Shown here piece after piece: positions 598 through 18,555 of a DNA stretch of 20,830 nucleotides (the first letter of the stretch is position 1; the number at the start of each line of letters is the position of its first letter). The position numbers and the translations under genes are program-made. Below the pieces are notes generated by a model. That model had not been told where the DNA came from, searched no databases, and was given only the letters and a program-made list of their open reading frames with translations. This stretch comes from a virus: IMG/VR virus record IMGVR_UViG_3300041809_000135, positions 1-20,830 of that record, one strand, 5' to 3'.

Positions 598-1086
598 ATG
601 ACTATAAGTGAAAAAAGCAGAGCTAAAAATTTGGCTAGTTTTCTTGGTATGTCACATGGTGCAGCCAATAATAGACTTCGCAAATCACTTTTATTTAAGT
701 ATGTGAAGTTGGCTGGCGAGGATGTTTGTTTTAGATGTAATAAACAAATAAACTCTCTGGAAGAGTTCAGTATTGAGCATAAATTGCCATGGGAAAATAA
801 GGAAGCTAGTTTGTTTTGGGATTTGGATAACATAGCTTTCAGCCATTTAACTTGCAATTGTGGCGCAGCATTTAAGCCGGGGAAAATGATTCCTGTTGAT
901 GGTGAATCATGGTGTACGAATTGTAAGAAGTTTCATCCTGTTGATGAGTTTAGTAAGGCTACTGATCCTAAACATAGTAGAAACGGTTTGTCTGAGGAAT
1001 GCAAAGCTTCTCATGTTAAAAGGACTCAGCAGTACAGAGAATTATTGCGGGGTAGACTGGAGCCCGGTCCCAGCGCGGCCCCATAA
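598..1086 (+). CDS. HNH homing-type endonuclease (HNH-1), 162 aa
   Basis: A DNA endonuclease of the HNH family, probably a free-standing homing endonuclease. The core runs from about residue 44 to 88: a CxxC pair (C44, C47), then E60-H61, N78 and H83, then C86 and C88, which is the metal-binding layout of zinc-ribbon HNH nucleases. A second CxxC (C106, C109) followed by C135 looks like an added zinc finger. The ATG at 598 follows an AGGAG site at 586-590; a frame extending 30 bases further upstream lacks that spacing. Its last 13 codons run into the tRNA-Met-like gene, and its TAA stop (1084-1086) lies in the anticodon loop. This looks like insertion beside the tRNA with capture of a stop codon from it. 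It differs from the three paralogous HNH genes further on. Confidence 0.85.
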   Translation: MTISEKSRAKNLASFLGMSHGAANNRLRKSLLFKYVKLAGEDVCFRCNKQINSLEEFSIEHKLPWENKEASLFWDLDNIAFSHLTCNCGAAFKPGKMIPVDGESWCTNCKKFHPVDEFSKATDPKHSRNGLSEECKASHVKRTQQYRELLRGRLEPGPSAAP

Positions 1087-1124
1087 GCCGATCACGAGAG
1101 TTCAAATCTCTCCCACCGCAACCA
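1046..1124 (+). tRNA. tRNA-Met-like (anticodon CAT), slightly irregular
   Basis: The acceptor strand TGCGGGG pairs with CACCGCA with one G-A mismatch. The anticodon stem CGGC/GCCG holds the loop CCCATAA, giving anticodon CAT. The T arm is a perfect GAGAG, TTCAAAT, CTCTC. The discriminator is A and the CCA end (1122-1124) is encoded. Oddities are C instead of T before the anticodon, a D region about three bases long by comparison, and one extra C between the T stem and the acceptor stem. It could be elongator or initiator Met, or an Ile tRNA needing lysidine modification, or it could be decaying. The 5' half overlaps the 3' end of the HNH-1 gene. Confidence 0.62.
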
Positions 1125-1203
1125 ATTTTAAGAAGTAGGTTTGGGCAAGACTCTGCGCCCATATAGGAGGCAGCAGACAAGCGACGATGAAAGCGTACAA
1201 GTA

Positions 1204-1238
1204 GGGCAGGGTTGGTTGCCTAGCTTCCACCCCTGCCC
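1204..1238 (+). promoter_or_regulatory. Strong hairpin in the groEL leader
   Basis: Bases 1204-1215 pair with 1227-1238: GGGCAGGG pairs with CCCTGCCC, then one T-C mismatch, then TGG pairs with CCA. The loop is the 11-base TTGCCTAGCTT. It lies 24 bases before the groEL start and is followed by ATTTATTTT, so it could be a terminator of the tRNA unit, an RNA processing or stability element, or a control element for the chaperonin genes. The remaining bases from 1125 to 1203 hold no convincing gene; a five-codon ATG frame at 1187 has badly spaced Shine-Dalgarno sequence. Confidence 0.4.
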
Positions 1239-1262
1239 ACATTTATTTTGGGGGAGTTGTTC

Positions 1263-2876
1263 GTGGCAAAGGAACTTCATTTTGACAAAGAAGCTCGCGA
1301 AAAGATGATGGTGGGTATTGACGCGGTGACCAAGCTTGTAGGAAGCAGCTTGGGTCCAAAAGGACGCTGCGTCGTAGTTGAGCGCACAGTAACTAACCCG
1401 GCCACCAAGGAAATAATTCGCCTAACCCCGGTAACCACAAAAGATGGGGTGAGTATAGCGAGGGCAATATCTTTATCTGACCCAACCGAGAACATGGGTT
1501 GTGATCTTATTCGCGAGGCTGCATCGCAGACGGTGAACAAGGCCGGTGATGGTACGACAGCGAGTGTTGTTTTGGCCAGGGCTCTGATTCATGAGGGTAT
1601 GTCTGCATTGGATAATGGTTCAAGCCCGGTGTTTATCCGATATGGTATTGATAAAGGAGTTGCCAGGGTCATTGAAGTTCTTGATGAAATGAAACAGCCT
1701 TGTAATGGCAGAGAGCTTCAAATAGCACGCATTGCGGCTAACGGTGATGAAGAGATTGCTGCAACAGTTGTCAGAGCGATTGAAATGGCTGGTGAGAACG
1801 GAATAGTTTCTGTTGAAGCTTCTCGTAGTGATAAAACAGAAGTTGATTTTTCACCAGGAATGAGGCTTGATAGTGGTCTTCGCTACCAGGATTTTGTTAC
1901 GGATGGTTCTCGTGGAGAATGTGTTCTGGACAATCCTTATATTTTATTGCATGAGAGACGTATTCCGAACTTTGCAGCGGTTGGAAAGCTTATAGAAGCG
2001 GTAGCTGAGAGTGGCCGGTCTATTCTGATTCTTTCTGAGGAATTTGAAGTACCGTTCATTGCTTTTTTGTTAACTAACCTTGCTAAGTTAAAGTCGTGTG
2101 CTGTAGTAGCTCCGTATTTTGGTGAGCGTAGGAAGGACATGCTAAAAGACCTCGCGGTATTTACCGGAGGCACGGCAATTACAGATGAACTTGGATTAGA
2201 CACTAAAACATTGGGTCTAGAAGTTTTGGGGCAGGCTGATAAGGTAGTTGTCACAAAGGGACATACTACAATTATTGGTGGCAAGCCTTCTTCTACTGAG
2301 TTAACGGATCGCATCAATTACTTGAAGCTGGCTATTCAGAGGACAGAAAACCCATATGAGAAAGAAGTCTTCGCGGATAGGCTAGCCAAGTTAGATGGAG
2401 GAGTTGCGGTAATTAAGATTGCAGCCGCGACGGAATCCGAGTCCAAGGAAAAGAGGGACAGAACAGAAGATGCGGTCCTATCTGTGAAATGTGCTAGGGC
2501 AGAAGGAATTGTTCCTGGTGGAGGGGTTGCATTGTTGAGATGTGCCCAGGATGAGGCTCTGTTGTCTATGGCCGATCAAGGCTATCCTGAGTCTGATGGT
2601 GTAAAAGTTTTAATTGCTGCTTTATATTCTCCTATTACACAATTACTGAATAACGGGGGATATGATACTAATGATATTATAGAGTATCTTAAAGCTGCTC
2701 CTAAAGAAATTGGTTATGATGCGTTGGGCGGAAAATTTGAGAATATGTTTGAGGCTGGGATTGTTGATCCAGTTAAAGTAGTTAAGGAAAGTTTGAAGAA
2801 CGCAGCATCTCTGGCTGGTACATTTTTAACGGCCTCTGGTACGATTACAAATCTCCAAGACGGAGAAAAAAAGTGA
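1263..2876 (+). CDS. groEL: Phage-encoded GroEL chaperonin, 537 aa
   Basis: A group I chaperonin subunit, expected to form rings that fold proteins with ATP in the host cytoplasm. Full equatorial-intermediate-apical organisation is visible. The phosphate-binding LGPKG is at 30-34, the aspartate equivalent to E. coli D52 is D61 in TKDGVS, GDGTT is at 95-99 with D96 matching D87, RTEDA is at 400-404 with D403 matching D398, and GGGVAL starts at 419. The apical stretch aligns well with bacterial GroEL through APYFGERRKDML (283-294). The GTG at 1263 is chosen because GGGGGAG (1250-1256) lies six bases upstream and MAKELHF matches the family N-terminus; a TTG at 1248 would put that site inside the gene. 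Oddities are an extra 8-9 residues around 43-57 and the absence of a C-terminal GGM tail. Its stop overlaps the groES start by four bases. Confidence 0.97.
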   Translation: MAKELHFDKEAREKMMVGIDAVTKLVGSSLGPKGRCVVVERTVTNPATKEIIRLTPVTTKDGVSIARAISLSDPTENMGCDLIREAASQTVNKAGDGTTASVVLARALIHEGMSALDNGSSPVFIRYGIDKGVARVIEVLDEMKQPCNGRELQIARIAANGDEEIAATVVRAIEMAGENGIVSVEASRSDKTEVDFSPGMRLDSGLRYQDFVTDGSRGECVLDNPYILLHERRIPNFAAVGKLIEAVAESGRSILILSEEFEVPFIAFLLTNLAKLKSCAVVAPYFGERRKDMLKDLAVFTGGTAITDELGLDTKTLGLEVLGQADKVVVTKGHTTIIGGKPSSTELTDRINYLKLAIQRTENPYEKEVFADRLAKLDGGVAVIKIAAATESESKEKRDRTEDAVLSVKCARAEGIVPGGGVALLRCAQDEALLSMADQGYPESDGVKVLIAALYSPITQLLNNGGYDTNDIIEYLKAAPKEIGYDALGGKFENMFEAGIVDPVKVVKESLKNAASLAGTFLTASGTITNLQDGEKK

Positions 2877-3145
2877 AACTAGGAAGCGATAAAGTTTTAA
2901 TTGAACGTACTGATGCACCGGCTACAACAGAAGGTGGGCTTTTAAAGATTCCTGATGCAATGCGGGAGAAGCCTGATTTTGGTATTGTACTTGAGGTTGG
3001 TTCAAAGGTTACTGATTGGGAAAAAGGTGATCGAGTGCTGTACCCTAAATGGTCTGGTTTCGTAGTGAACGTTCCTAATGATAAGCGCGACCTTCTTGTT
3101 CTTTTCGCAGATGAAATCTGGCTGGCTTTAGAGGTTACTCTGTAA
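2873..3145 (+). CDS. groES: Phage-encoded GroES co-chaperonin, 90 aa
   Basis: The lid co-chaperonin for the upstream GroEL. The family layout is present: an N-terminal LGSDKVLIERTD strand, a flexible mobile loop at about 14-34 with the hydrophobic GGLLKIP segment that contacts GroEL apical domains, FGIVLEVG at 36-43, and KGDRVLYP at 51-58. It is slightly shorter than the roughly 97 residues of bacterial GroES. It starts with GTG inside the overlap GTGA, with GGAG a few bases upstream (about 2862-2865), so translation is probably coupled to groEL. The gene order groEL then groES is the reverse of the usual bacterial operon. The clear mobile loop suggests a working pair rather than a relic. Confidence 0.93.
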   Translation: MKLGSDKVLIERTDAPATTEGGLLKIPDAMREKPDFGIVLEVGSKVTDWEKGDRVLYPKWSGFVVNVPNDKRDLLVLFADEIWLALEVTL

Positions 3146-3417
3146 TGGATGCTTCTAAGTTTTCAGGAAAAGCTGTTTCTAAGAAAGATGCCGGATTTAT
3201 TGGTTTTCGCATCATTGAAATTCCTCTTGGACTTGTTAGAGAGATGGTTGCTAAAGGAATGGGCGGTGAAGGGTCTAAGAAACTGTGTAAAGACTACCCT
3301 CCTAATGGACCTTGTTCTGATCTAACAGCGGTTCAGGTTAATGAATTTGATGGGGCTCTTACTATTATGAAGAACCCTGATGGAACGTACAAGCAATTAA
3401 CTAAACAAGGAATGTAA
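3145..3417 (+). CDS. Hypothetical protein, 90 aa
   Basis: Not recognised. The ATG overlaps the groES stop by one base (TAATG), and GAGGT (3131-3135) lies nine bases upstream, so it is almost certainly co-translated with the chaperonin pair. The protein is small and soluble-looking, Gly/Lys-rich, with two cysteines near the centre (KLCKDYPPNGPCSD) and no membrane segment. It could be an accessory of the chaperonins or simply a neighbour; nothing in the sequence decides this. Confidence 0.75.
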   Translation: MDASKFSGKAVSKKDAGFIGFRIIEIPLGLVREMVAKGMGGEGSKKLCKDYPPNGPCSDLTAVQVNEFDGALTIMKNPDGTYKQLTKQGM

Positions 3418-3418
3418 T

Positions 3419-3622
3419 ATGAGAGAAGAGGAACGCAAGGACAAGAAAGAATGCCCCACAGCTTGTTGTGAAGCAGGGACAGCGGCTACTATTGCTATTA
3501 TTTCTGGAGTTCAACTACGTCCAGTTTCCACAAATAAGAAAAATGATAACATCATTGTTCGCGGCAAGGTGATTGGTGCTTGCGATCATCCCGGCGTGGA
3601 AGAGGACTGTGGTGGGATGTAA
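3419..3622 (+). CDS. Hypothetical Cys-containing small protein, 67 aa
   Basis: Not recognised. It starts one base after the preceding stop, with AAGGAA about seven bases upstream of the ATG. The N-terminus is strongly charged (MREEERKDKKE). Cysteines at 12, 16, 17, 55 and 64 could bind metal or form disulphides. The central TAATIAIISGV stretch is mildly hydrophobic but too short for a confident membrane span. It belongs to the same tightly packed run of genes as groEL and groES. Confidence 0.7.
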   Translation: MREEERKDKKECPTACCEAGTAATIAIISGVQLRPVSTNKKNDNIIVRGKVIGACDHPGVEEDCGGM

Positions 3623-3624
3623 AA

Positions 3625-4011
3625 GTGACTAAGGAAGAGAATGCTAAGCGCCAGCGAATATGGCAGTTTAAGAGAAAGTTGAAGTCCATCTTCGCATATT
3701 GGAAGATCATGAAAAAGATTGGCAGCGAAAAAGGATTTAGGTTAATTAAAACCATGTTGAGGTCCGTAGGTAATCCTAAGAAACATCCCGAGGCTACTGC
3801 TAGGGAAGTTTTGCGAGCATCAGAATGGTTGATCTACTTAGAAACAGGTGCAAAGAAGGCATCCTCACCTAAAGAATTAACACCTGTTTCCGCAGAAGAG
3901 GTTGATACTAATTCCATAATTGTTAATCCTGAAATTGGTCCCGATGCTGCTGATATTGAGTTAACTGGGCTATTGAACAAGCTCAAGGATCGACAAAATG
4001 CAAGTTCCTAG
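3625..4011 (+). CDS. Hypothetical protein upstream of the packaging genes, 128 aa
   Basis: Not recognised with confidence. The GTG at 3625 is chosen because GGTGGGA (3611-3617) lies seven bases upstream and it starts just after the previous stop; an ATG at 3580 would overlap the previous gene by 43 bases. The first 55 residues are very basic and probably helical (KRQRIWQFKRKLKS), followed by a segment HPEATAREVLRASEWLIYLE and an acidic tail. A small basic DNA-binding protein upstream of terL could be a terminase small subunit, but I see no diagnostic motif, so this is only a possibility. Confidence 0.72.
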   Translation: MTKEENAKRQRIWQFKRKLKSIFAYWKIMKKIGSEKGFRLIKTMLRSVGNPKKHPEATAREVLRASEWLIYLETGAKKASSPKELTPVSAEEVDTNSIIVNPEIGPDAADIELTGLLNKLKDRQNASS

Positions 4012-4393
4012 AAACTGGAAAGATGTGGCTATTGGAGTTTCAATACTCTTAATAGCGTGGACTATAGGTTGGACTGCTAGTGATTATGTTACAATTCACA
4101 GCAAAGTTGTAAATCTTCCAGACATAAGTGATATTGTAACTTCTAAGTCGATTGATGAAAGATTCAAATCTACTAATGATAAGATAGATCGTAATTTTGA
4201 TGTTAATACTAAGAGACTTGATCAGATAGAAGGTAAGATTGATAAGTTGCTTTTAAGCATGGCTATAAAACAACGACAGCCATCTATTAAAAATGACGAT
4301 AGTATTTATCCATCAGACCTTCCATCTATAATTAGTCCCAAGAAAGAACACACTAAGGTAGCCCAAGTTCCGAAAGAACAGAAAGTTCAGTAA
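3998..4393 (+). CDS. Membrane-anchored coiled-coil protein, 131 aa
   Basis: A single membrane segment lies at about residues 11-27 (AIGVSILLIAWTIGW), preceded by a short charged N-terminus and followed by a predicted coiled coil at about 50-90 with regular Ile/Leu spacing (IDERF, KIDRNF, RLDQIEGKIDKLLLSM), then a Lys/Pro-rich tail. The architecture, N-terminal anchor plus external coiled coil, resembles inner-membrane spanins (Rz-like) that act in lysis, but no lysis partner is visible beside it. The ATG overlaps the previous gene by 14 bases, and AAGGA lies about eight bases upstream. The 69 bases after it contain no recognisable element. Confidence 0.75.
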   Translation: MQVPRNWKDVAIGVSILLIAWTIGWTASDYVTIHSKVVNLPDISDIVTSKSIDERFKSTNDKIDRNFDVNTKRLDQIEGKIDKLLLSMAIKQRQPSIKNDDSIYPSDLPSIISPKKEHTKVAQVPKEQKVQ

Positions 4394-4462
4394 GACACCG
4401 TTTCTCACCGCTTGGTCAGAGACGTGTTGTTGTAAGTCTGGGTAAGTTAGAGGGTAATTAAT

Positions 4463-4893: not shown

Positions 4894-5325
4894 ATGTCTG
4901 ACTACCATATTAGGAAATTTTATAAATGCCCCTACTGTGATAAGGAAAGAGGCCGCAATATTCAACCGGACGGTAGGAATAAAGGTATTTATAAAACCTG
5001 TGGTTCTTTGGGGTGTATTTTGAAGGGTAGAAGTAAGCCAAATCCTTTAAAGGCACATCATGGATGTAATCATCCTAAATGGTTAACTGATAGGAGTAAG
5101 GTAAAGTACAGACCAAGATATGAAATGACTATATGGACTAGGGAAGTATTTGAACGTGATAATTACACTTGCCGAGCATGTGGTCAAAAGGGCGGTAATC
5201 TTCAAGCTCATCATATCTTAAGTTATGCTAAATTTCCTAAACAACGTTGGAATTTAGCTAACGGTATGACACTTTGTTTATCTTGTCATAAAAAGACAGA
5301 TAGCTATGCAAGAAATTCTGTTTAG
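4894..5325 (+). CDS. HNH endonuclease (HNH-2), 143 aa
   Basis: An HNH-family DNA endonuclease. The catalytic domain fills residues 81-135: a WTREVFERDNYTCRACG opening with C93 and C96, the catalytic H106-H107, asparagines at 120 and 123, and a closing CLSCHKK with C128, C131 and H132. The N-terminus carries CPYC (12-15) and further cysteines at 36 and 41, which may be a second zinc site for DNA binding. Such stand-alone genes normally behave as homing endonucleases. The end of the gene overlaps the ribosome-binding site of the next small gene (AGGGG at 5324-5328). It is not close to the three paralogous HNH genes. Confidence 0.9.
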   Translation: MSDYHIRKFYKCPYCDKERGRNIQPDGRNKGIYKTCGSLGCILKGRSKPNPLKAHHGCNHPKWLTDRSKVKYRPRYEMTIWTREVFERDNYTCRACGQKGGNLQAHHILSYAKFPKQRWNLANGMTLCLSCHKKTDSYARNSV

Positions 5326-8304: not shown

Positions 8305-8715
8305 ATGAAAAAGTGTTTACGTGGTCATTTGATGACTACTAGAAATACTTGGTTAAAGAAATGCAAGGATGGTTATACAAGGACTCTTTGCAGAGCTTGT
8401 GAAAGAATAAGAAATAACAGGATAAAGTTAGAACTTAAAATTGAAGTTCTTTCTCATTATGGCAAGGATGAGAAATTGCAGTGTTGTTGGCCTGGGTGTG
8501 AAGTTAATGACATTGATGTTTTGACTTTAGACCATGTAAATGATGATGGAGCAAAACACAGACGAAGTAAAGGGTATGGTCAAGGTGGAGGATCATTCCT
8601 TTATTGGGAAGTTAGGAAATTAGATTTTCCAAAAGGTTATCAAACACTGTGTTGTAATCATCAATGGAAAAAAGAAATTTTAAGACGCCGAAATATGCGT
8701 TTTGATGAGGAATAA
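8305..8715 (+). CDS. HNH endonuclease (HNH-3), 136 aa, paralogue of HNH-4 and HNH-5
   Basis: A free-standing HNH endonuclease. An N-terminal zinc-finger-like region has cysteines at 4, 20, 29 and 32 (CLRGH ... CKDG ... CRAC). The core has CCWPGC at 60-65, the catalytic D76-H77 in LTLDHVN, and GYQTLCCNHQWKK at 111-123 with C116, N118 and H119. The second half is very close to HNH-5, including an identical 17-base DNA run (8446-8462 and 18304-18320), which indicates recent copying within this lineage. TGGAGG precedes the ATG. The 3' end encodes GATGAGGAATAA, whose GAGGAA is the ribosome-binding site of the portal gene two bases on. Confidence 0.92.
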   Translation: MKKCLRGHLMTTRNTWLKKCKDGYTRTLCRACERIRNNRIKLELKIEVLSHYGKDEKLQCCWPGCEVNDIDVLTLDHVNDDGAKHRRSKGYGQGGGSFLYWEVRKLDFPKGYQTLCCNHQWKKEILRRRNMRFDEE

Positions 8716-11077: not shown

Positions 11078-11152
11078 TGCGGTGTAGCCAAACGGTAAGG
11101 CAACGCACTGTTAATGCGATCATTGGAGGTCCGACTCCTTCCGCCGCAGCCA
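11078..11152 (+). tRNA. tRNA-Asn (anticodon GTT)
   Basis: Acceptor TGCGGTG pairs with CGCCGCA, D stem GCC pairs with GGC, and the anticodon loop CTGTTAA carries GTT. The T arm is GGAGG, TCCGACT, CCTTC, with one weak T-stem pair. The discriminator is G and CCA is encoded (11150-11152). The outermost anticodon-stem pair is an A-A mismatch. It is embedded in the structural operon, two bases after one gene and about ten before the next, whose ribosome-binding site lies just past the CCA end. It must therefore be excised from, or co-exist with, a structural mRNA. Confidence 0.93.
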
Positions 11153-13397: not shown

Positions 13398-13682
13398 ATG
13401 AGTTATTCACCCACATCAGGGCTGGTGAGCAATCTTCCCCAGGCACAAGCGACCTATTTCGATAGGGACTTTGTGCAAAACCTCAAACAAGTCACCCCTT
13501 TCTACCGCTGTGTAGAGAGGCGTGAATTGCCGCCCCAGTCTGGTCAGAACCACAGGCTGTATATGTATGCGGCAGGTTTGGGGATCGCTTTTAACGTCAA
13601 TCAGGCATCAGAAGGTACGGTGGTTGCAGGTATCGCTCCGGCAGTTAGCACTGATAGTGCAGTAATCGGGCAATACGCCGAT
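13398..13682 (+). CDS. Major capsid protein, N4-gp56 family, exon 1 (95 codons)
   Basis: The N-terminal part of the coat protein that builds the icosahedral shell. AGAGG lies ten bases before the ATG. The exon ends with the codons for GQYAD, and the following intron immediately gives AAA TAA in frame, so unspliced RNA would yield only a 96-residue fragment. Joining 13682 to 14292 restores GQYAD-YVNVSDYALE, the conserved region of N4-gp56-type capsid proteins, and a total of 343 residues, within the usual length for the family. The family call rests on this motif context recalled from known proteins. Confidence 0.87.
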
Positions 13683-14291
13683 AAATAAAACATTGTTGGC
13701 GTTAAATTCTACTATATCCGTCAAAGGCTTTTGAAAGGAAAGCAGAGACGGAGGAAAGATTTCATCATGGAAAGAAAAGCGTACTGTTATGCCGCTGGCA
13801 TACTGGACGGTGAAGGAACAATAGGGATATACAGGTGTAAACAAGGAAAGGCTATTTTAGATTTTAAGCTGTGTATTCATATTGCAAATACCTCGTTAAA
13901 ATTGATGTATTGGCTTGTAAGGAATTTTGGTGGAAACTATTATCAAAGCAATTCGGGTTTTCAAAAGAGAAATCCAACATCAAAAACCTTATATACTTGG
14001 GTAGTTAGTGGTGCTAAAAATAGGGAAAAGTTTCTACTTGGTATTATTCCTTATTTGTTGCTTAAAAAAGAACAAGCAAAAATAGCATTAGAATTTGTTA
14101 GGTTAAATGGGGTTCGGTGCCCAGAAAAACGGCAAGAACTTGTTGAACGTTGTTATAAAGCCAACCATCAAGATGAAAAATCCCCAGAGGCCATACGTAG
14201 AACACAGGAAATACCTGTGAAGATATGGTCCGAACTGCATAGTGATATGCAGAGCGCTCTATTGGAGACAATAGAAGCCTAAACAAAATTG
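13683..14291 (+). ncRNA. Group I intron interrupting the capsid gene
   Basis: A self-splicing ribozyme with recognisable helices. P1: exon GCCGAT (13677-13682) pairs with GTTGGC (13695-13700), ending in the required U-G pair at the splice site. P3: 13707-13712 with 14197-14202. P4: 13717-13722 with 13747-13752. P5: 13727-13731 with 13739-13743. P6: 13758-13766 with 14172-14182 (two-base bulge). P7: GGCCA (14189-14193) with TGGTC (14226-14230) inside the S-like AAGATATGGTCC. P8: 14204-14208 with 14214-14218. P9: 14235-14240 with 14247-14252, plus a further hairpin at 14259-14274. A four-base P10 joins ACAT (13690-13693) to exon-2 ATGT. The last intron base is G. The LAGLIDADG gene occupies the P6 loop and reads on through the 3' core. 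Confidence 0.9.
13767..14282 (+). CDS. LAGLIDADG homing endonuclease in the capsid intron, 171 aa
   Basis: An intron-encoded site-specific DNA endonuclease that spreads the intron into intronless capsid alleles. The family helix is clear at residues 8-20 (AAGILDGEGTIGI), with one motif only, so the enzyme probably works as a homodimer. The C-terminal half has the expected basic, hydrophobic pattern (LLGIIPYLLLKKEQAKIALEF). The ATG at 13767 directly follows the 5' strand of intron helix P6, and its GGAGGA ribosome-binding site (13750-13755) overlaps the P4 strand. The last third of the gene encodes both protein and the ribozyme core P7-P9. The gene stops nine bases before the intron end. Confidence 0.92.
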   Translation: MERKAYCYAAGILDGEGTIGIYRCKQGKAILDFKLCIHIANTSLKLMYWLVRNFGGNYYQSNSGFQKRNPTSKTLYTWVVSGAKNREKFLLGIIPYLLLKKEQAKIALEFVRLNGVRCPEKRQELVERCYKANHQDEKSPEAIRRTQEIPVKIWSELHSDMQSALLETIEA

Positions 14292-15038
14292 TATGTCAAC
14301 GTCAGTGACTATGCTCTAGAAACTGCAATTGATCCATGTGTGGAGAACTTGGAACGTGAGATGTGCTACCGTTTGGCTGGCACTATTTCAACCCTAGTTC
14401 GCACCGTGGCGAATGGTGCGTCAAGCGTCGATACGACTGCCTTGACTCAGTTGTCTTCTGGCACAGTTCTAGCTCGCCAGAATTTGACTGCTGCTACCCA
14501 AGAACTACGTCAGCGTTCAGTTCTGCCGTTTGACCCCGGTGAAAACCGTTTTGTCGGCGTCATCAGTCCGTTGTCAATTGGAGACACGTTGAATCAAACG
14601 ACTCCTAGCAACGACTTGGTTGACGTCTACAAACACACCAAGGAAGGCTTGGATCGTTTGCTTGAGCTTCCTGGTGGGGATGGCAAGGACCACGTTGCCC
14701 CTGTGCTGGAATTTGGTGGAATGCGATTCTACGAGAGTCCTATCGTTACCACAACTTCTAGCTATCTATCGTCTGCTGCGACTGCATACCGAACCTATTT
14801 GTTTGGTCATCAGGCCGTGATTGGAATTTCTCTTGGAGTTAAAGAGAATTCTCAGATCGGTGAAGGTGACTGGAGCAATATGAAGGTTTGGATTATGAAG
14901 CCGACAGAGCCTAGCGTTGGCGATCCTACGAGGGTAATCGGCGGCTGGGCCTCGTACAATGTGAAGCTTGTCTTTACCCTCCCCCCGGATACGATCTCTC
15001 GGTTGAGGATGATTGATGCAACTAGTAATCTTAGCTAA
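14292..15038 (+). CDS. Major capsid protein, N4-gp56 family, exon 2 (248 codons plus stop)
   Basis: The main body of the coat protein, continuing the exon-1 frame exactly at a codon boundary. It begins YVNVSDYALETAIDPCVENL, typical of N4-gp56-family capsid proteins, followed by LAGTISTLVRTVANGASSVD, LPFDPGENRFVGVISPLSI, and a C-terminal beta-rich part ending RVIGGWASYNVKLVFTLPP. A TTG at 14289 is not a gene start; the base before TAT at 14292 is the terminal G of the intron. It is the best substrate candidate for the viral chaperonins. Downstream come a hairpin and an HNH gene. Confidence 0.88.
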   Translation, partial: YVNVSDYALETAIDPCVENLEREMCYRLAGTISTLVRTVANGASSVDTTALTQLSSGTVLARQNLTAATQELRQRSVLPFDPGENRFVGVISPLSIGDTLNQTTPSNDLVDVYKHTKEGLDRLLELPGGDGKDHVAPVLEFGGMRFYESPIVTTTSSYLSSAATAYRTYLFGHQAVIGISLGVKENSQIGEGDWSNMKVWIMKPTEPSVGDPTRVIGGWASYNVKLVFTLPPDTISRLRMIDATSNLS

Positions 15039-15143: not shown

Positions 15144-15608
15144 ATGCCATTAAAAGACCCAGTAGCACGAAGAAAGTATGATCGCGAAAGACCTCATAGG
15201 TACAATAAAGAAACTCAAAAGACTTATGAGCAATTGGCTTCTACGAGAATAGCTCGTCGTAATGCAAGGGAAGTTTTGAAAAAGGAAGTTCTAGCCCATT
15301 ATAGTTTCAACCCTATTCCTCGCTGTGTTTGGCCTGAGTGTGACATAGTTGATCTTGATATGCTCACCCTTGATCATGTGAACGGTGGAGGAACAGAGCA
15401 TAGGCGAGCTGGAGGATGCAATTTTGGTGTTATCCTCTATCGCAAGTTGAGACGCGCAGGTTATCCGGTTGGTTATCAAACATTGTGCTTCAATCATCAG
15501 TGGAAGAAACAATTGACTCTGTTGAAGCAGGATTTTGATAGCAGAAATGATTTACATGCAATGGGTCCGAGAGTGCCCACAGTGTCACCGGGAGTTAAGA
15601 AAGCATAA
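15144..15608 (+). CDS. HNH endonuclease (HNH-4), 154 aa, paralogue of HNH-3 and HNH-5
   Basis: A free-standing HNH endonuclease. It opens MPLKDPVARRKYDRER, the same style as HNH-5, with a basic helical N-terminus. The core has CVWPEC (61-66), the catalytic D77-H78 in LTLDHVNGGG, R87-R88, and GYQTLCFNHQWKK (110-122) with C115, N117 and H118. CGGAGGG precedes the ATG. The last 20 residues look unlike the paralogues and overlap, in another frame, a zinc-ribbon mini-gene, which suggests the gene was inserted into that upstream region and extended until a stop was met. It lies just after the capsid gene. Confidence 0.92.
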   Translation: MPLKDPVARRKYDRERPHRYNKETQKTYEQLASTRIARRNAREVLKKEVLAHYSFNPIPRCVWPECDIVDLDMLTLDHVNGGGTEHRRAGGCNFGVILYRKLRRAGYPVGYQTLCFNHQWKKQLTLLKQDFDSRNDLHAMGPRVPTVSPGVKKA

Positions 15609-18156: not shown

Positions 18157-18555
18157 ATGCCTTATAAAGACCCTGCTGAACAAAAGAAATATACAGAGGA
18201 GCATCGTAAAGAAGCTAATGCACGAGCTAGAAAGTGGAGAGAAGAAAATCCCGAAAGAGCTAAGAAAGTTCAGCGTGAATACCAGATGAGAGTTAAGATT
18301 GATGTTCTTTCTCATTATGGATCTAATGGAAAACTTCAATGTTGTTGGCCCGGATGTGAAGTTACTGATATTGATATTTTGACTTTAGACCACGTAAACA
18401 ACGATGGGGCCGAGGATCGTAAAGGACATGGTAAAGGCGGGGCATATTTTTATTCTCGTGTTAGGAAAAACTTATACCCCGAAGGCTTCCAAACCCTGTG
18501 TGCTAATCATCAGTTAAAGAAAGAGATTCTTCGTAGGAGAGCAGAGGAAATATAA
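18157..18555 (+). CDS. HNH endonuclease (HNH-5), 132 aa, paralogue of HNH-3 and HNH-4
   Basis: A free-standing HNH endonuclease. A basic helical N-terminus (MPYKDPAEQKKYTEEHRKEA) leads to CCWPGC (62-67), catalytic D78-H79 in LTLDHVNNDG, and GFQTLCANHQLKK (110-122) with C115, N117 and H118. The core is nearly the same as in HNH-3, down to an identical 17-base DNA run, whereas the N-terminus matches HNH-4, so the copies look mosaic. AGGAGA precedes the ATG. The 3' end supplies GAGGAAA as ribosome-binding site, and the stop overlaps the ATG of the next gene by one base. Confidence 0.92.
   Translation: MPYKDPAEQKKYTEEHRKEANARARKWREENPERAKKVQREYQMRVKIDVLSHYGSNGKLQCCWPGCEVTDIDILTLDHVNNDGAEDRKGHGKGGAYFYSRVRKNLYPEGFQTLCANHQLKKEILRRRAEEI

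Follow-up and report, generated by a model that had tools for sequence, protein, structure and literature searches.

A probable mobile group I intron in the major capsid gene of a soil phage and its capsid-linked relatives

The major capsid protein (MCP) gene of a phage from soil bacteria is interrupted by a 609-nt group I intron that carries an open reading frame for a LAGLIDADG homing endonuclease. The DNA analysed here, called the window, is a 20,830-bp IMG/VR virus record, a fragment represented by a single metagenomic contig. Established below are the anatomy of the intron, the covariation of its helices, the existence of empty and filled alleles, a pattern that fits co-conversion, the selection on its endonuclease and the preference of related elements for capsid genes. 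The best explanation of these data as a whole is a mobile, spliced group I intron with a homing endonuclease, which belongs to a capsid-linked lineage; we put the probability of this reading at about 0.93. An earlier note on the same DNA had recognised the intron, its site, its phase and its splice pairs; it omitted the endonuclease frame, the intron-minus alleles and the capsid-linked lineage.

Results

The two exons form one capsid gene

The main features of the interrupted gene are as follows.

13398-13682, plus strand: MCP exon 1, 95 codons, ending in GQYAD with U as final base; aligned with intronless MCPs
13683-14291, plus strand: group I intron, 609 nt, final base G14291
13686-13688, plus strand: in-frame UAA, which ends the unspliced reading after one intron codon (AAA)
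13767-14282, plus strand: LAGLIDADG homing endonuclease frame, 171 aa, motif GILDGEGTIG
14292-15038, plus strand: MCP exon 2, 248 codons and stop, beginning YVNVSD; aligned with intronless MCPs

The joining of exons 1 and 2 in silico generates an open frame of 343 aa. As the earlier note had proposed, this restores an in-frame capsid protein at GQYAD-YVNVSD; the joined protein aligns with its intronless relatives through the junction without a gap and with 81-82% amino acid identity. The note had also placed a stop two codons past exon 1, and this is what the RNA reads (AAA, then UAA), so the predicted unspliced product is a piece of 96 aa. An intein was considered as a reading of the insert and is ruled out by the stop at the second intron codon. 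That full-length coat protein depends on splicing follows from the sequence of this gene; extended to the phage, the statement has to allow for the fact that the window is a 20.8-kb fragment and that a second capsid gene may lie elsewhere.

Compared with the PHROG families, the joined protein falls to 1357, 'major head protein' (E 5e-7). Over its full length it has 41.5% amino acid identity to the protein annotated as major head protein in Tunturiibacter phage Tunturi_3. A Pfam search with the capsid protein gave no match. The match to the N4-gp56 type named in the earlier note is remote (TIGR04387, 34.2 bits with a cut-off of 60). A portal gene of the SU10 type and scaffold-like genes lie upstream of the MCP gene. 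Tunturi_3 is a podovirus infecting an acidobacterium (PMC11924767); because of the likeness between the two head proteins, an acidobacterial host is plausible, but no more than that, for the window phage.

The insert has a covarying group I core

The insert had been placed at 13677-14296. It does lie there; the intron proper is 13683-14291, and the remainder is exon sequence that contributes one strand each to P1 and P10. The elements of the ribozyme are listed below.

13677-13682, plus strand: P1 exon strand GCCGAU, pairs with 13695-13700 with U.G at the splice site; recovered unprompted in the fold
13690-13693, plus strand: P10 guide strand ACAU, pairs with exon 2 AUGU at 14293-14296; four pairs with a U.U adjoining
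13695-13700, plus strand: P1 internal guide strand GUUGGC, G13695 opposite U13682
13707-13712, plus strand: P3 5' strand UUCUAC, partner GUAGAA at 14197-14202; six of six pairs double-changed in relatives
13717-13722, plus strand: P4 5' strand UCCGUC, partner 13747-13752; four of six pairs double-changed, 100% paired
13727-13743, plus strand: P5 hairpin, 13727-13731 with 13739-13743; from covariation alignment and fold
13750-13754, plus strand: GGAGG within P4/P6, a likely Shine-Dalgarno sequence of the endonuclease
13760-13766, plus strand: P6a 5' strand UUUCAUC, partner GAUGAAA at 14172-14178
14186-14192, plus strand: P7 5' strand with bulge, partner in the 14227-14231 region of AUGGUCC; 100% paired, two of five pairs double-changed
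14203-14219, plus strand: P8 hairpin CACAGG/CCUGUG
14220-14231, plus strand: J8/7 and P7 3' strand, AAGAUAUGGUCC
14235-14252, plus strand: P9 hairpin, 100% paired, four of six pairs double-changed
14258-14275, plus strand: P9.1 hairpin, sequence different and pairing largely retained in the sister intron L007 (see below)

P1 with its U-G splice pair, P3 to P9, a short P10 and the terminal G could thus all be located, as had been claimed; P6/P6a was also placed by hand among the core helices. P2 and P7.1/P7.2 are absent from the hand-placed structure. The strands of P7 and P3 are separated by four bases (14193-14196), and the intron lacks the P7.1/P7.2 between P7 and P3 by which T4-like introns of group IA are recognised.

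The fold of 13683-14291 as a group I intron is far from chance. The intron RNA without its reading frame folded at -67.3 kcal/mol compared with -40.6 for shuffled sequences (z -6.8), and the unconstrained fold recovered P1 and P4 to P9.1. The evidence from covariation is overwhelming. In an alignment of 20 related cores 97.6% of the helix cells are paired, compared with 75.0% after shuffling and 30-43% when strands are slid; 25 of the 36 core pairs are changed on both sides, and double changes occupy 166 cells versus 55.5 in shuffled alignments. The P3/P7 pseudoknot is strongly supported, since all six P3 pairs covary. Rfam model RF00028 matched the window in a covariance search, the check proposed in the earlier note, with 28.7 bits, which is below the gathering score of 50 (E 8e-4 over 4227 families, 1.8e-7 for RF00028 alone). 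The ORF-less introns of related loci reach 57.8-76 bits, and the low score of the window is probably due to some 400 nt of coding sequence in the P6a loop. Together, the helices, the borders and the covariation in 20 relatives bear out the claim that a group I intron splits the capsid gene.

Free-standing nucleases next to split genes are common in phages (PMC10448857), and the relatives in StenR_269, L083 and L097 look like free-standing genes beside an intact MCP. StenR_269 is an isolated Stenotrophomonas phage, and its family endonuclease lies immediately upstream of the MCP. It could be argued that a free-standing endonuclease gene has split the MCP gene here and that, in place of splicing, each half is made and functions as a protein in its own right. 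This is very improbable, because the covarying group I core flanks the endonuclease frame on both sides, the junction preserves the phase exactly and comes with P1 and P10 guide pairs and a terminal G, and the junction offers exon 2 no good start codon.

Empty and filled alleles of the capsid gene

Seven loci without the intron (L001-L004, L006, L009 and L010) contain an unbroken MCP across GQYAD/YVN. A sister phage from another sample (L007) has a 608-nt intron at the identical nucleotide of a different MCP. Minus its intron, L007 differs from the intronless L001 at only 2 positions in 6,133 bp (99.967% identity). Both differences are synonymous; they are at +3 and +6 of exon 2, i.e. within 6 nt 3' of the insertion. 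Intron-plus and intron-minus alleles, the mark of a mobile intron, thus occur in near-identical backgrounds. In sequence terms L007 and L001 behave as a filled and an empty allele, and the pattern fits exon co-conversion in homing; it lends indirect support to cutting of the intron-minus allele by the endonuclease. P10 has five pairs in L007 and would be broken by the bases TACGTC of the empty allele in L001.

The introns of the window and L007 are identical in 528 of 600 aligned bases, and two helices have changed on both sides. P6a changes from UUUCAUC/GAUGAAA in the window to CUCAUC/GAUGAG in L007, with one base fewer per strand, and P8 from CACAGG/CCUGUG to CACAAC/GUUGUG. Exon 2 begins TATGTT in L007 and TATGTC in the window; because of this difference the donor of the L007 intron would be a phage other than that of the window.

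The window is a single metagenomic contig, and an identical copy is present in one other record (L005), which is perhaps from the same population. An assembly artefact or chimera is nevertheless extremely improbable, given that the intron of L007, which comes from a separate sample, differs in sequence and interrupts a different MCP at the matching nucleotide, and that the Rfam-positive family was found repeatedly, in many samples.

The empty site was also inspected for symmetry. Its palindromy is weak (6/11 at best), and no convincing palindromic cleavage site was found there; judged from the sequence, the symmetry is below what a symmetric dimer of the I-CreI type would ideally want.

The endonuclease is under selection and predicted to be I-CreI-like

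The endonuclease frame starts beside P6a, fills the P6a loop and extends across P7, P3, P8, P9 and P9.1. In the GGAGG region, GAGGAAAG is retained in most of the aligned relatives. Six of eight members of the family match PF00961 (best 2.4e-8); the window endonuclease alone scores 14.4 bits, with a cut-off of 23.1. I-CreI comes from a chloroplast rRNA intron. An AlphaFold model of the window endonuclease (pLDDT 70.6) has I-CreI variants as its top PDB matches (E 2.9e-5), and an I-CreI-like, single-motif LAGLIDADG fold is predicted. The two enzymes share 17-21% identity, and the window motif, GILDGEG, has E at the position of the usual catalytic D. A scan of 84,980 cell genomes with the endonuclease detected no relative.

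Between the window and L007 the endonuclease has a dN of 0.092 and a dS of 0.75 (dN/dS ~0.12), and by these substitution rates it is under purifying selection. At synonymous sites of the exons the same two loci differ far more (exon 1 dS 2.8, exon 2 saturated). Because the dS of the endonuclease is 0.75 and the exons are near or at saturation, the intron lineage is of more recent origin than the divergence of the capsid genes it interrupts; on this comparison it has moved between phage lineages after the capsid genes had diverged. The L007 frame has a frameshift downstream of the endonuclease domain, so the part of the frame over P7-P9 is dispensable.

These data also bear on the idea that the insert is a dead former intron that no longer splices and that the phage record is defective. 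The window is a metagenomic fragment and its Rfam score is below gathering, which would suit this idea; the core helices, however, are all intact, P6a and P8 show paired changes relative to L007, dN/dS of the endonuclease is ~0.12, and the exons are open and conserved. We therefore regard decay as very unlikely.

Relatives of the endonuclease are concentrated in capsid genes

A search with the window endonuclease as sole query added four independent loci to that of the window: L007, L017, L018-20 and L021. Each interrupts a capsid or capsid-like gene, and four different sites are represented. A search with an alignment of eight endonucleases resulted in 244 relatives, the best 80 of which form 63 clusters at 90% identity. 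In or within ~0.3 kb of MCP sequence on at least one side are 57 of these 63 clusters, a count obtained with a seed that holds only endonuclease peptides, but all from capsid or capsid-like genes, and with MCP reference proteins that come partly from the same loci and are mostly typed by PHROG. MCP sequence is present on both sides in 34 of the 63. Among the best 80 the neighbouring MCP families are PHROGs 1357, 267, 1005, 14242, 283, 1328, 371 and 752, and the association persists without the five clusters of the L121 type described below (52/58).

The intron core is common to the sense-strand members of the lineage. Nine clusters among the best 80 are antisense to the MCP; in L077, L085, L086, L088, L101, L102, L104, L106 and L114 the endonuclease is antisense in or beside the MCP, a layout like that of phage LittleE (see Discussion). 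The insertion sites in MCPs of the 1357 type are near residues 20, 50-60, 92-96, 187 and 209 of L001; the window insertion and about ten others are at residues 92-96. Two further arrangements were observed. In L018 (3400-3620) P8 of the capsid-gene intron is enlarged, and the endonuclease frame runs through P8 and ends in a cysteine-rich, zinc-ribbon-like tail (CTKCNHLVSEHTSTGCNVKVCDAAGDLDFCPCG). In L099 (3-631) the endonuclease gene comes directly after an MCP gene end of the PHROG 1005 type; behind it, 16 aa from the C-terminus of that MCP are repeated with 100% identity.

Some relatives in named phages (25-35% identity) have no capsid link where the context was checked; these are Anedea (beside ThyX), CcrRogue and OneUp. 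The capsid bias is therefore a property of the window's sublineage and not of all such endonucleases. Since the closest relatives are mostly capsid-linked, coat genes look like a favoured home of such introns.

A putative capsid gene with up to four insertions

A conserved gene (L121 type), which from its position after a scaffold-like frame is probably an MCP gene, has anything from no insertion to 4 insertions, which are spread over about nine sites. The inserts measure ~190-245 nt (ORF-less) or ~630-970 nt. In the L145 copy (775-4400) three of the inserts are group I introns with endonuclease frames and the fourth, of 201 nt, is ORF-less, and L160 gives three RF00028 matches at gathering level. 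L163 and L156 also carry the gene with insertions. The L121-type gene had no match in PHROG, Pfam, PDB or named phages, and its fold prediction has a pLDDT of 29.

Other genes in the window

The window contains at least five free-standing nuclease-like genes in addition to the endonuclease of the intron. Three related HNH-like frames (8305-8715, 15144-15608 and 18157-18555) share the motif CCWPxC...DxLTLDHVNxxGxxxRR...FQTLC.NHQ.KKE; the first two had no match in Pfam, the third none in PHROG. Relatives of these are present in L018 (500-1021) and L145 (6299-6859). Two more genes for HNH-type endonucleases are at 568-1086 and 4894-5325. Adjacent GroEL-like (542 aa) and GroES-like (90 aa) genes were recognised by sequence at 1248-3145. 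A tRNA-Ala(TGC) is at 106-182, and a tRNA-Asn(GTT) at 11078-11152 is within the structural gene cluster.

Discussion

For splicing, cleavage, active homing and translation of the endonuclease from unspliced RNA we infer the following course. In the transcript the intron would fold around the P3-P7 pseudoknot and guanosine would attack after U13682. Exon 1, released by this step and kept in place through P1 and P10, would then attack after G14291, and the joined exons would encode the 343-aa capsid protein. The endonuclease, translated from unspliced RNA, would cut the MCP gene of a co-infecting phage at GQYAD/YVN if that allele has no intron; repair of the break would install the intron together with a few exon bases, which keeps P10 paired. 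Because the putative Shine-Dalgarno sequence is in P4/P6 and the 3' part of the frame covers P7-P9.1, folding of the ribozyme and translation of the endonuclease should compete and be mutually exclusive.

Sense-strand endonuclease frames in the P6a loop, an early in-frame stop and homing with co-conversion are known from the T4 introns in td, nrdB and nrdD. The window intron resembles these in its P6a-loop frame, its early stop and, as seen in L007, a pattern that fits co-conversion; the T4 introns differ in their enzyme families, in their host genes, which serve DNA metabolism, and in having P7.1/P7.2.

Introns in phage capsid genes are already known. The cluster J mycobacteriophage LittleE has a probable group I intron of 819 bp in its major capsid gene, the splicing of which was proven by RT-PCR and protein sequencing (PMC3706429). 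LittleE shares with the window the capsid-gene location, U/G splice sites, an I-CreI-related LAGLIDADG frame and presumed mobility. Its frame, however, is antisense, the capsid family and site are others, and it is one intron in one phage, whereas the window intron has a sense-strand frame that runs from the P6a loop into P7-P9 and belongs to a large lineage; the nine antisense clusters resemble LittleE in layout. Lactococcal phage Tuc2009, as described in the paper that cites it, is a further example with a group I intron in a capsid subunit gene (cited in PMC3706429).

The usual sites of phage introns according to reviews are genes for polymerases, ribonucleotide reductase (RNR) and terminases (PMC3984707). 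The introns of Bastillevirinae are in genes for DNA polymerase, terminase, RNR and thymidylate synthase (PMC11878797), and Twort orf142 is cited there as a gene with three introns. The window lineage is similar in that one phage gene can have several group I introns with endonuclease frames in their loops; the difference is that in Bastillevirinae DNA-metabolism and terminase genes are the hosts, and here capsid genes.

A search of the literature, mostly of openly accessible papers, found no description of a capsid-specialised intron lineage, and this capsid tropism, which appears undescribed, is the new part. It is likely that group I introns and endonucleases of the LAGLIDADG kind include an undescribed lineage, that of the window intron, which is specialised in phage MCP genes and moves among at least eight families that are unrelated by profile. 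With the same good confidence we read the lineage as occupying at least five sites in one family, and as accumulating in a single putative capsid gene to as many as three introns with endonuclease frames and one that is ORF-less.

A recent survey asks what confines phage introns to genes of nucleotide and DNA metabolism (2025; PMC11878797); the capsid-linked lineage is a counter-example to this premise. It targets the structural protein that a phage needs in the greatest amount, and there inefficient splicing should be at its most costly. L001 and L007, near-identical phages which are one intron and two apparently co-converted bases apart, are a ready-made test of homing. Gene callers will call such coat proteins truncated, and surveys of soil phages that rely on the MCP will overlook them or count them in pieces.

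Faustovirus is a giant virus of amoebae, and its capsid fold and virus realm are unrelated to those of the window phage. Homing endonucleases have spread type-I introns in its MCP gene, which contains 13-18 of them (PMC7290515), and the likeness is that of a capsid gene repeatedly invaded via intron-encoded homing endonucleases. If the lineage is as we propose, capsid genes would be a homing hot spot in phages too, in parallel to the MCP gene of Faustovirus.
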